From Gemmobacter lutimaris (GTDB lineage: Bacteria; Pseudomonadota; Alphaproteobacteria; Rhodobacterales; Rhodobacteraceae), in contig NZ_QXXQ01000005.1 in assembly GCF_003570715.1 (NCBI RefSeq), positions 62,001 through 126,000 of the forward strand: a stretch of 64,000 nucleotides of DNA, read 5' to 3'. Positions 30,866-63,652 of this stretch are shown piece by piece. The translations under genes were made by a program, and so were the position numbers. The notes below the pieces were generated by a model. It was not told the origin of the DNA, did no database searches, and saw only the letters and a program-made list of their open reading frames with translations. Numbering within the stretch: the first letter of the stretch is position 1; the number at the start of each line of letters is the position of its first letter.

Positions 30866-31660
30866 TCACTCAACCCCAAGGATGTCGGGGGTTTTCCAGC
30901 CCAGATGCTGCCCGCCGTCAACGCAGATCAACTGCCCTGTCACCGCCTCGGCATCCAGCAGATATCCCAGCGCGGCGGTAATGTCGGCGGGGTTCGCGCC
31001 ACGCCCCAGCACGGTGTTCGCACGCTGCCGGGTGAAGTGGTCAAGGCTTTGCCTCGCGCCCTGCATTGTCGGACCGGGGCCGATGGCATTGACCCGGATG
31101 CGCGGCGCCAGCGCCTGCGCCGCGGTCTGCGTCAGTGTCCAGAGCGCAGATTTCGCCAGCGTATAGGTCATGAATTCGGGGGTCAGCTTGCGAACCCGCT
31201 GGTCGATCATGTTGACGACCAGCCCGGTCGCCAGCGGCTCGCCCGCTGCGTCATGCGCGGCCTCGGGCGCCTGTGCGGTGAAGCCCTGCATCAGCACGAA
31301 TGGCGCGCGCAGGTTGCTTTCCATATGCCGGTCCCAGCTTGTGCGGCTGGCGCTTTGCAGCGTGTCATACTCGAAGATTGAGGCATTGTTGACCAGAACA
31401 CCCAACTGTCCGCCCAGCCCCTCGGTCGCGCGCGCGACCAGCGTTTCTGTCTGCGCCTCATCCAGCAGATCGGCTTGAAGGGCGATGGCCTGCCGACCCA
31501 GTGCCTCGATCTGTCGCACGGTTTCGGCGGCACCATCGGCGCTGCCCGCGTAATGCACGGCAACATCATAGCCGCGCCCGGCCAGATACAGCGCCATGGC
31601 CTGACCCAGCCGCTTGCCCGCACCGGTAACCAGCGCCCGTTTGATCTGTGGCCCCGTCAT
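30866..31660 (-). CDS. folM: SDR oxidoreductase, FolM/pteridine reductase-like
   Basis: 264 residues. Rossmann motif VTGAGKRLGQAMALYL: the Arg in TGAGKRLG is the pteridine-reductase variant of TGxxxGxG. NASIFEY, VVNMIDQRVRKLTPEF and the catalytic YTLAK (MTYTLAKSALWTL) match FolM, which reduces dihydromonapterin/dihydrofolate with NADPH. RVNAIGPGPTMQG and GQLICVDGGQHLGW finish the fold. Its ATG overlaps the antiporter stop, making it the last gene of the S49 peptidase operon. Confidence 0.82.
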   Translation of the reverse strand: MTGPQIKRALVTGAGKRLGQAMALYLAGRGYDVAVHYAGSADGAAETVRQIEALGRQAIALQADLLDEAQTETLVARATEGLGGQLGVLVNNASIFEYDTLQSASRTSWDRHMESNLRAPFVLMQGFTAQAPEAAHDAAGEPLATGLVVNMIDQRVRKLTPEFMTYTLAKSALWTLTQTAAQALAPRIRVNAIGPGPTMQGARQSLDHFTRQRANTVLGRGANPADITAALGYLLDAEAVTGQLICVDGGQHLGWKTPDILGVE

Positions 31661-59999: not shown

Positions 60000-60860
60000 T
60001 CAATACCACTTGGCGACGGGGGGCAGGCTCATCAGCACGGCATCGGCGTTATGGCCGGTCTCCAGCCCGAATTTGGTGCCGCGATCATAGACGAGGTTGT
60101 ATTCGGCATAGAGGCCGCGATGGCGGAGCTGGGTTTCTCGGTCCTCCTCGGTTGCGGGAGTGCCGAGGCGGCGTTCGGTCACCGGCAGGAAGGCGGGCAG
60201 GAAGGCGCTGCCGACGGCGCGGGTGAAGGCGAAATCAGCCTCCCAGTCGCCGGTGTTCAGATCGTCATAGAAAATGCCGCCGACGCCGCGCGCCCGGCCC
60301 CGGTGGGGGATGAAGAAATACTCGTCGGCCCAGGCCCTGAAGCGCGGGTAATAGCCCGCGTCATGCGCGTCGCAGGCGGCTTGCAGGGCGACGTGAAAGT
60401 GCGCGGTATCTTCGGCATATTCGATGCAGGGGTTCAGATCGGCACCACCGCCAAACCACCAGGCATGGGGCGTCCAGAACATGCGGGTGTTCATGTGGAC
60501 GGCGGGTGTATGCGGGTTCTGCATATGGGCCACGAGGCTGATGCCGCTGGCCCAGAAGCGCGGATCTTCCGCCATGCCGGGCACACCGCGTGCCGCCATC
60601 GCCTTTTGCGCGCGCTCGCCAAGGCTTCCATGGACGGTGGAGATATTGACGCCGACCTTTTCAAAGACCGTGCCGCCGCGCATCACGCTCATCAACCCGC
60701 CGCCGCCGCTGTCGCGGGTGGTGGGGGTGACCTCGAACCGGCCGGCCGCAGCGCCGCCGAAACGGGTTTCCAGCGCCTCGAAGGCGGTCACGATCTCATC
60801 GCGCAGGCTGCGGAACCAGTCTGCCGCGCGGGTCTTGCGGGTTTCGAAATCCTCGGTCAT
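60000..60860 (-). CDS. hemF: Oxygen-dependent coproporphyrinogen III oxidase HemF
   Basis: 286 residues. Aerobic oxidative decarboxylation of coproporphyrinogen. RDSGGGGLMSVMRGGTVFEK, HMNTRMFWTPHAWWFGGGAD, IPHRGRARGVGGIFYDDLNT, and YAEYNLVYDRGTKFGLETGH are family blocks. ATG 60860; first of the hemF-DUF pair. Together with hemE it belongs to the heme pathway though in a different operon. Confidence 0.96.
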   Translation of the reverse strand: MTEDFETRKTRAADWFRSLRDEIVTAFEALETRFGGAAAGRFEVTPTTRDSGGGGLMSVMRGGTVFEKVGVNISTVHGSLGERAQKAMAARGVPGMAEDPRFWASGISLVAHMQNPHTPAVHMNTRMFWTPHAWWFGGGADLNPCIEYAEDTAHFHVALQAACDAHDAGYYPRFRAWADEYFFIPHRGRARGVGGIFYDDLNTGDWEADFAFTRAVGSAFLPAFLPVTERRLGTPATEEDRETQLRHRGLYAEYNLVYDRGTKFGLETGHNADAVLMSLPPVAKWY

Positions 60861-60974: not shown

Positions 60975-61364
60975 ATGAAACGTCTGTTGATCCTGCTGCC
61001 GGTCCTGGCAGCCTGCGGCACACCGCAAGAGCAATGTATCCGTCAGGTGACCCGCGATCAGCGTGTGGTGGAAAAGCTGATTGTCGAGACGCAAGAGAAC
61101 CTGCGTCGCGGCTATGCCATTGAAACCTATGAAACCACGGTTACACGCTGGCGGCCATGCGGACCGCGCGGGGTTGACAAGAAGGGCAAGCCCGTCCCGC
61201 CGCAGATGTGTCTGGACGATATAGACGTGACGCGCACGCGGCCAAAGGCCATTGATCTGGATGCGGAGGCCGTGAAGCTGCGGCAGCTTCGGCTGAAGCG
61301 GGATGCGCTGATCAGGCAAAGCAGCACTTCGGTCGCCGCCTGCAAGGCCCAGTATCCCGAATAA
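60975..61364 (+). CDS. Putative lipoprotein, conserved hypothetical
   Basis: 129 residues. Signal MKRLLILLPVLAACGTP with lipobox LAAC. Mature part has Cys in EQCIRQVTRDQRVVEKLIVE, RPCGPRGVDKKGKP, PQMCLDDIDVTRTRP and VAACKAQYPE: four Cys besides the lipid Cys, possibly two disulphides. A helix with charged residues at the end. GTGGAGGG precedes ATG 60975. Its stop is 3 bases before the convergent SDR stop. Confidence 0.7.
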   Translation: MKRLLILLPVLAACGTPQEQCIRQVTRDQRVVEKLIVETQENLRRGYAIETYETTVTRWRPCGPRGVDKKGKPVPPQMCLDDIDVTRTRPKAIDLDAEAVKLRQLRLKRDALIRQSSTSVAACKAQYPE

Positions 61365-61367
61365 GGA

Positions 61368-62171
61368 TCAGTGGGCAGGTGCCGCCACCGCATCGATCAG
61401 GCTGCGCCCGCCATCCACTGTCAGCACCTGCCCGGTCATGAAGCCGGAGGCATCGGAAGCAAGGTATTGCACGGTTTCCGCCAGTTCGCTGGCAGCGGCG
61501 ATGCGGCCCAGTGGCGTGCCTCTGGCGATCGCCTCACGGTAATCCGGGGTTTCCTTCAGGGCGGCCTGAAGGCTTGCACTCATGACCGAGCCGAAGGCCA
61601 CGGCATTTACCCGGATGCCCTTTGGGGCGAGGGCCACGGCCATGGAGCGGGTCATCTGGTCCAGTGCGGCACAGGCGACGGAATAGCCCAGCAACTCGGG
61701 CCGTGTGTGATGCGCGGCGATGGAGGAGATATTGATGATTGATCCGGCCGGACCGCCGCCGTTGCGCTCGGCCTGAAGGATCATCCGCTTGGCAGTCAGC
61801 TGCGTCAGGCGCAGGCTGGGAAAGAGGTTCTGTTCCAGCATCGGTTCCACCGCGTCATCGTCGATGCAAAGCGGGTCCGACAGGCTGATCTGGCGGCTTG
61901 CATTCACGAGGATGTCCACCCGCTCGAAGGCGTCCATCGTGGCTGACAGCAGGTTGGTAATGGCCAGCTTCTGCCGCAGGTCGCCCGCGAACATGCGCAC
62001 CGGGCCTTCGCCGCGCGCCTCGTCGCCGATTTCGGCATCAAGCCGGGCTTCGTCCATGTCGGCGAACATGACATTGGCACCCTTGTCAACGAAATGGCGC
62101 GCGATGGCGCGGCCGATGCCATTGGCGGCGCCGGTGACGATGGCGGTTTTTCCCTGAATGGAAAGCGACAT
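61368..62171 (-). CDS. SDR-family protein with altered active site
   Basis: 267 residues. Cofactor motif TGAANGIGRAIARHFVDKG (classic TGxxxGxG) and ADMDEARLD are normal, and the Ser block IINISSIAAHHTRPELLG is present. The catalytic YxxxK is YSVAC here (Tyr then Cys in place of Lys), and NNAG reads VNASR. The rest of the fold (RVNAVAFGSVMSASLQAAL, GQVLTVDGGRSLID) is intact, so it may bind NAD(P) without standard catalysis. GGAGG just before ATG 62171. Downstream of the RsmC-like gene by 19 bases, probably cotranscribed. Confidence 0.85.
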   Translation of the reverse strand: MSLSIQGKTAIVTGAANGIGRAIARHFVDKGANVMFADMDEARLDAEIGDEARGEGPVRMFAGDLRQKLAITNLLSATMDAFERVDILVNASRQISLSDPLCIDDDAVEPMLEQNLFPSLRLTQLTAKRMILQAERNGGGPAGSIINISSIAAHHTRPELLGYSVACAALDQMTRSMAVALAPKGIRVNAVAFGSVMSASLQAALKETPDYREAIARGTPLGRIAAASELAETVQYLASDASGFMTGQVLTVDGGRSLIDAVAAPAH

Positions 62172-62190: not shown

Positions 62191-63174
62191 CTAGCGGCGG
62201 CTGGGGTAGGAGGCACGGACAAGCCGGAACGCGCCATCGCCGCCGATCTCCTCCACTTCCCGGAACGCTGCGCGCAGGGCGGGATCATAGGGGAGATGGC
62301 GGTTGGCGACCAGCCAAAGCGTGCCGTCGGGCGCAAGCATCTTTGCCGCAGCCCGGAGGAAGGCGAGGCCGAGGCCGGGATCGGCCTCGCGTCCGGTGTG
62401 GAAGGGCGGGTTGCAGACCACGGCGCCCGCCAGATGCGGCACCTGCCAGAGCCGCGCATCGGCCCAGTGGAAATGCGCGCGCGGGTCGGCGATGTTCAGC
62501 CGCGCGCAGTCCAGCGCGGCGTGGTCGGCCTCGACCAGATGCAATTCCTTTACCCCGTCACGGGCAAGGATGGCGCGGGACAGGTAGCCCCAGCCAGCAC
62601 CCAGATCGACCACGCGCGAAGGGAATTTGGCGGGCAATACTTCGGCCAGCAGGATCGAACCACGATCCGGCCCGTCGGCGGAAAACACGCCGGGCAGGGT
62701 GGTGAAGCCGTCAACCTGCTGCGGGCGGGCGGACCAGTCCGACAGATCCGGGCCGGAAGGGAAGGCGGCGATCTTGCCATGGGCCTTGGCCAGCGCCTCG
62801 CCCAGATCCACGCGGGCGCGCAGGTCTTTCAGCAGCGTGTCAATGCCATCGGTCTTTTGCCCGTCAAGGATGACTGGGGCGCCGGGCGGCAGATGGGCGC
62901 AGGCAGTGGCGACCAGCGCGCGGGCTTCGGCCCGCACGCGTGGCACGCAGATCAGGGCTGCGGCATAGCTGCCCTCCGGCGCGGTGGTGCAGGCATAACC
63001 CAGCCCCGCGAAATGATCGTGATCGGGGCGGAAGCCGGTGATGACCTGCACCTGCGCCTTGGGCAGGGCTGACAGGTCGTCGCCCGCGCGTGGGCGGAAA
63101 ACGGCAATGCGCCCCTCGGGCGGCAGGGCAATCGCGCCGGTATCCAGCGCAAGCTCAAGACGGGTGGAACGCAT
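62191..63174 (-). CDS. rsmC: Class I methyltransferase, RsmC/RlmG-like rRNA guanine N2-methyltransferase
   Basis: 327 residues. An N-terminal degenerate methyltransferase domain (~1-155), then the active one: SAM motif SRVVDLGAGWGYLSRAILAR and catalytic AVVCNPPFHTG (NPPF). HLVEADHAALDCARLNI is the acidic loop. The two-domain layout matches RsmC (G1207 of 16S rRNA) and RlmG; which one is uncertain. ATG 63174; 28 bases after clpS. Confidence 0.85.
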   Translation of the reverse strand: MRSTRLELALDTGAIALPPEGRIAVFRPRAGDDLSALPKAQVQVITGFRPDHDHFAGLGYACTTAPEGSYAAALICVPRVRAEARALVATACAHLPPGAPVILDGQKTDGIDTLLKDLRARVDLGEALAKAHGKIAAFPSGPDLSDWSARPQQVDGFTTLPGVFSADGPDRGSILLAEVLPAKFPSRVVDLGAGWGYLSRAILARDGVKELHLVEADHAALDCARLNIADPRAHFHWADARLWQVPHLAGAVVCNPPFHTGREADPGLGLAFLRAAAKMLAPDGTLWLVANRHLPYDPALRAAFREVEEIGGDGAFRLVRASYPSRR

Positions 63175-63202: not shown

Positions 63203-63523
63203 TTATTCCTTCTCCATCGTGCATTGCAGCGGATGCTGATGCCGACGCGAGAAATCCATCACCTGCGCGACCTTGGTTTCGGCCACCTCGAACGAGAACA
63301 CACCGACAACGGCGAGGCCCTTCTTGTGGACCGTCAACATGATCTCGAACGCCTGTGCATGATTGAGGCCGAAGAAGCGTTCAAGGATGTGCACCACGAA
63401 TTCCATCGGCGTGTAATCGTCGTTCAGCAGCAGCACCTTGTACATGGGCGGCCGCTGGGTGCGGGTCTTGGCCTTCGTCAGGATCGAGGCTTCGGATCCG
63501 GGCCCGTCGTCTTTGTCGGACAT
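63203..63523 (-). CDS. clpS: ATP-dependent Clp protease adaptor ClpS
   Basis: 106 residues. Delivers N-degron substrates to ClpAP. The core [20 protein letters not shown] with [20 protein letters not shown] (the hydrophobic pocket Asp/Asp, His) and [20 protein letters not shown] are diagnostic. The N-terminal tail is long and charged. MSDKDD at 63523 chosen over an upstream Met at 63544. No clpA in the window. Divergent from the HAD gene. Confidence 0.95.
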
Positions 63524-63652
63524 GAGAAAGGGGCGCAGGGTCAAGGGTCGCTCCGGCAGGTTCGGCGGATTCGTGATGGAAAGAGATTATAGCGCAAAGC
63601 AGCGGCGCGAAAAGGGGCTGGCGAATCCGGGGGGCGGCGTTACCTTCGTCGG

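Follow-up and report, generated by a model that had tools for sequence, protein, structure and literature searches.

The gene at positions 61368–62171 (minus strand) of the window, the whole 64,000-nucleotide stretch of Gemmobacter lutimaris DNA analysed here, is annotated as an ordinary short-chain dehydrogenase/reductase (SDR), yet it is without the Lys that these enzymes normally need. In SDRs, this Lys binds the nicotinamide ribose and lowers the pKa of the catalytic Tyr. Judging from comparisons with its relatives, the protein is probably a conserved SDR pseudoenzyme that has kept its NAD pocket together with a role that does not involve canonical hydride transfer. Of 394 genomes sampled from the Rhodobacteraceae, a large bacterial family, 369 have a match to this annotated oxidoreductase that is without a residue central to its chemistry (key residues being read in 177 loci). 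The case provides a natural experiment in how SDRs can change or lose catalysis while selection holds the fold and the cofactor pocket, and is a warning against the transfer of enzyme function by annotation.

Sequence and predicted structure of the SDR

Translation of 61368–62171 gave a protein of 267 aa with 0 internal stops that matched Pfam adh_short_C2 with an E-value of 1.1e-47. The coordinates, strand and intact frame given in an earlier note on this DNA were confirmed, as were the motifs it had singled out: YSVAC (residues 163–167, with Y163 and C167; 61671–61685, minus strand) in place of YxxxK, VNASR (residues 89–93) at the site of NNAG, and an intact cofactor Gly motif, TGAANGIG (residues 13–20; 62112–62135, minus strand). 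Within the altered NNAG (NASR, residues 90–93; 61893–61904, minus strand) the Gly is replaced by Arg93, the most distinctive clade-specific residue of the protein, and FG stands where SDRs have PG. Asn115 (61827–61829, minus strand) and Ser150 (61722–61724, minus strand), which we take to be the counterparts of the catalytic Asn and Ser of SDRs, are both present, as is Tyr163. On the cofactor side, G14, G18 and G20 were found in 102 of 102 aligned sequences (alignment A1, obtained by dropping the partial member L136 from a set of 103 rows), with D38 in 97 and D64 in 98 of them.

AlphaFold gave a confident prediction of an ordinary SDR (mean pLDDT 93.1, pTM 0.92), in line with the normal fold that the earlier note had assumed. 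Both the TGxxxGxG motif and the Rossmann fold of the SDRs are found in the protein. The top Foldseek match was BacC (5itv; E 1.6e-22, TM 0.88 by query length), which was also the best in a second-look alignment, VIA, with a Z of 35.6; chain B of BbsCD (7pcs_B) reached 34.2, many rows being tied within 1. A common fold shows no function. The near-whole-chain fold, the Gly motif and the Asn/Ser/Tyr positions are shared with classical SDRs such as the glucose 1-dehydrogenase-like proteins of PRK07231, the Brucella 7alpha-hydroxysteroid dehydrogenase (3gaf/8hdi) and BacC. Unlike these, the window protein has no catalytic Lys, carries NASR for NNAG and FG for PG, and falls under the PRK07231 cut-off (198.5 bits vs 215); this was the best-scoring NCBIfam model, and no cut-off was reached among the best 25 of 229 matched models.

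The sequence upstream of the ATG on the coding strand, AGAAAGGGCTCCTCCTC-ATG, offers no more than a partial ribosome site, AAAGGG. A GAGGAGG also adjoins the start but belongs to the other strand, the wrong one for serving the SDR gene. The ribosome site, one of two grounds on which the earlier note had argued against a pseudogene, is therefore a weak one; the other, the intact frame, stands and makes the better argument together with the low dN/dS described below. The conserved M1 provides no independent evidence, since gene starts were chosen by script to match the query. The gene is single copy in its own genome, which gave 32 SDR matches including the protein itself, the next one being 36% identical. 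The nearest of the other matches, a second SDR in the window about 30 kb away at 30902–31648 (minus strand), shares 30% identity and has an ordinary YxxxK (YTLAK).

Conserved absence of Lys

Residues at the Lys site were read in 177 homologous loci, drawn from two genome collections that may overlap and therefore not all from different species, giving C 81, S 41, T 32, N 10, A 8, M 4, G 1 and K 0. A set of 120 non-redundant rows (<85% identity), which corrects for this, gave C 59, S 28, T 16, N 7, A 5, M 4, G 1 and again no Lys, and a count over 160 loci gave C 75, S 36, T 31, N 8, A 7 and M 3. By comparison, Lys was present in 34 of 36 outgroup SDRs. The counts leave out nine paralogue loci from the Gemmobacter genome itself (L002–L010), 17 loci from other families (L174–L190) and L204–L214; one of the latter, L210, seems to be the shorter portion of a split gene, the longer portion (L199) being counted.

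The Lys-less proteins formed one side of a branch with an SH-aLRT value of 99 (68 ingroup and 23 outgroup rows) in a quick tree built, like the others used here, with no mixture model. At least 25 changes at the Lys site were required within these 68 rows, among uncharged residues, so that no new catalytic residue has been fixed at this position. The conserved trait is the absence of Lys and not the Cys, on which the earlier note had placed its emphasis; asked whether the Cys is conserved in a clade, the alignment with homologues showed conservation of Lys absence and of Arg93. A Cys-specific function was rejected because Cys occupies this position in less than half of the loci. A sequencing error, for which the note had proposed homologues as a check, is excluded because the gene is also present in Gemmobacter caeni DSM 21823 (L011; 96% identical) and none of the 177 loci has Lys.

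Occurrence and selection

Matches were found in 369 of 394 genomes of the family (E ≤ 1e-60), in 192 of 196 genomes in the order search (E ≤ 1e-50) and in 22 of 385 in the class search (E ≤ 1e-38), five of the latter belonging to the same family and 17 to other families (36–41% identity). The 17 matches from other families had Lys (15) or Gln (2) at the Lys site and none had Arg93; rsmC, clpS and hemF were all missing from their short loci. The two with Gln (L176 and L179, from alphaproteobacterial family f123) read FSVSQ and YSISQ, apparently an independent loss of the Lys. Lowering the threshold to 1e-30 in the 25 family genomes without a match recovered four divergent Lys-less proteins (L200–L203) and, in five genomes, Lys-bearing SDRs only (L204–L208), which look like paralogues; the remaining 16 had none. 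In three of the divergent proteins (L200, L201 and L203; 41% identity), the Tyr has become H, F or L and no NNAG can be recognised.

A copy with 59% identity is found on a 326-kb plasmid of Paracoccus sp. SMMA_5_TC (NZ_CP102356.1, 284746–285540), where the match also touches a gene for a class I SAM-dependent methyltransferase. The gene is also present in a metagenome-assembled genome titled Exiguobacterium profundum (CP059262.1; L062), where it groups in the Rhodobacteraceae clade, the assembly being probably mislabelled.

The SDR gene is under purifying selection, with dN/dS values of 0.018–0.16 (median 0.07) in 32 close pairs (NG86). The missing key residue might be taken as the mark of a decaying gene or an error, a reading to which we give almost no weight and which is refuted for the family by dN/dS values of 0.16 or less in 32/32 pairs and by the lack of Lys in all 177 loci from many genomes; there was also no internal stop among the matches listed, and a match is kept across most of the family at E ≤ 1e-60. 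In a clade in which the Tyr is replaced by Leu (the Leu163 clade), dN/dS was 0.075–0.099 in 4/4 pairs, inside the range of all pairs, so that over these four pairs the replacement did not visibly relax selection. This provides the strongest single argument that, at least in the Leu163 clade, the kept function would not be canonical hydride transfer.

Tyr163, Arg93 and the probable retained role

The catalytic Tyr is itself not fixed. Across 160 loci, position 163 was Y in 141, L in nine, F in nine and W in one (Tyr gone in 19), and Tyr was kept in 99 of 120 non-redundant rows. At least nine changes, to L, F, W, H or A, were required at this site on the 68-row ingroup tree and 11 on a 120-row tree, with loss and regain not distinguishable. 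Asn115 (159/160) and Ser150 (154/160) were kept more widely.

The pseudoenzyme reading is favoured because Lys is absent from all 177 loci vs its presence in nearly all outgroup SDRs, the Lys site has changed at least 25 times, the Tyr has changed repeatedly, selection is not visibly relaxed in the Leu163 clade, the cofactor side is kept and the predicted structure is that of a normal SDR. The ancestor would have been an SDR related to the glucose-1-dehydrogenase-like group, with loss of the catalytic Lys and gain of Arg93 dating to the base of the Rhodobacteraceae or close to it. The fold and dinucleotide pocket would then have been kept, in most members within a clpS-rsmC-SDR-hemF block. NAD(H) or a related ligand is most likely still bound, canonical Tyr/Lys hydride transfer would no longer be performed, and the protein may be a subunit that responds to a ligand or to NAD, or a structural partner of another protein. 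Of the two options offered in the earlier note, loss of activity with retained binding of NAD(P) and a ligand or compensation by another residue, both are thus still live, now for a trait that is conserved and under selection.

Some observations count against a pseudoenzyme. Asn115, Ser150 and Tyr163 are kept in most members, more than might be expected of a pseudoenzyme free of catalytic constraint, the cofactor-side loop has gained a near-invariant Arg, and the analysis of selection after Tyr loss covers the Leu163 clade only. SDRs without the usual triad can also be active, as in the case of SimC7, described in PMC5039031 as an active SDR in which the whole triad, with its Tyr, is missing and which acts as a polyketide ketoreductase in antibiotic biosynthesis. 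The window protein resembles SimC7, going by that description, in being an SDR whose catalytic triad differs from the conserved one.

The near-invariant Arg may substitute for the charge of the Lys or hold a ligand. Position 93 was R in 155 of 160 loci (T 2, L 2, P 1), and Arg was present in 111 of 120 non-redundant rows vs 0 of the 32 outgroup rows that have a residue at this position, which makes it the clearest charge-adding residue specific to the clade; five changes at position 93 were needed within the ingroup on the quick tree. The main alternative, possible if doubtful, is that the protein is still an oxidoreductase in which Arg93 does the job of the Lys, both in ribose binding and in lowering the pKa of the Tyr, while Asn115, Ser150 and Tyr163 are kept. 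Besides the retained Ser and Asn, such a migration of charge is suggested by the link between Arg93 and the Tyr, which was retained in 151 of 168 loci with Arg93 and in one of nine without it; position 93 was the most strongly associated with the presence of Tyr163 among 91 similarly conserved positions (Fisher p 2e-6, 120 non-redundant rows). However, the association was not independent of ancestry, with two independent pairs on supported branches and no significance, and rows without Arg93 are mostly divergent overall, so that general decay might produce this association as well. Moreover, the Leu163 clade keeps Arg93 though it has no Tyr to activate. A rather unlikely course is one in which the active site was rewired, Lys loss accompanying Arg gain in the NNAG loop to give an Asn-Ser-Tyr-Arg catalytic set whose base-activating residue sits on a different loop, and some descendants later went without the Tyr and became true pseudoenzymes.

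Returning to a pseudoenzyme with a partner, BbsCD (7pcs) is described, in a title cited by PMC10818641, as a heterotetramer that includes inactive pseudoenzyme subunits. The window protein shares the SDR fold with 7pcs_B, which may be either subunit, the likeness being one of fold. Unlike BbsCD, no active SDR gene adjoins it, its neighbours being rsmC-type, clpS, lipoprotein-like and hemF genes, and the 31 other SDR matches of the genome are encoded elsewhere. Going by these sources, SDR pseudoenzyme subunits and active SDRs without the triad are already known kinds, and the Lys-less SDR is a variant rather than a new category. Literature searches returned nothing specific to the Lys-less SDR of the window.

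Gene neighbourhood

The SDR gene is preceded directly, after a gap of 19 bp, by a gene for an RsmC-type MTS methyltransferase (62191–63174, minus strand; 75.8 bits, below the RsmC equivalog cut-off of 295) and, further upstream, by clpS (63203–63544, minus strand; Pfam ClpS, E 3.2e-35), read as an ORF from a TTG whose true start may be internal. The next same-strand gene downstream is hemF, for oxygen-dependent coproporphyrinogen oxidase (60000–60860, minus strand, start placed by eye; NCBIfam NF003727, 368 bits vs a cut-off of 297). Between the SDR gene and hemF lies a small lipoprotein-like gene on the plus strand (60975–61364), recognised by sequence reading, with lipobox and start placed by eye and no Pfam match.

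The rsmC gene was upstream on the same strand in all 66 fully flanked named loci, with clpS in 64, hemF downstream in 55 and the lipoprotein-like gene in 30, and the rsmC-SDR gap had a median of 26.5 bp over all 80 named loci, which are the closest relatives. Many of the 177 loci are short; rsmC was matched in 156 of them and none of rsmC, clpS and hemF in 18. This adjacency raises the idea, by analogy with HSD10, itself an SDR and part of the tRNA methyltransferase complex TRMT10C-HSD10 of humans, that the window SDR might be a scaffold of the upstream methyltransferase, an idea we consider very unlikely. TRMT10C is presumably of a different methyltransferase type from the RsmC-type neighbour, and the likeness, an SDR gene adjoining an RNA-methyltransferase-type gene, is known here from gene adjacency. 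According to PMC5372732, methylation by TRMT10C requires that it be complexed with HSD10, whose role there is described as unclear and likely independent of its own catalysis.

Seventeen genomes without a Lys-less SDR were checked. Four of them have no rsmC match either, as a scaffold would predict, but the other 13 keep rsmC, and in eight of these 13 the clpS-rsmC-lipoprotein-hemF block is present with no SDR gene in its usual place. The adjacency to rsmC is thus part of a generally conserved block in which clpS and hemF are conserved too, and the gene, which is absent from a few lineages, is dispensable over evolutionary time. In two loci (L120 and L126), the SDR gene comes straight after clpS with no rsmC between, and rsmC was not seen in the short loci of the divergent Lys-less L200–L203 (clpS and hemF being also missing near L200, L201 and L203). 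Co-evolution, assessed by partial distance correlation over 78 loci, revealed no special tie to rsmC, the value for rsmC being 0.07 given clpS and hemF, compared with 0.11 for clpS and 0.46 for hemF. The lipoprotein-like gene persists where the SDR is missing.
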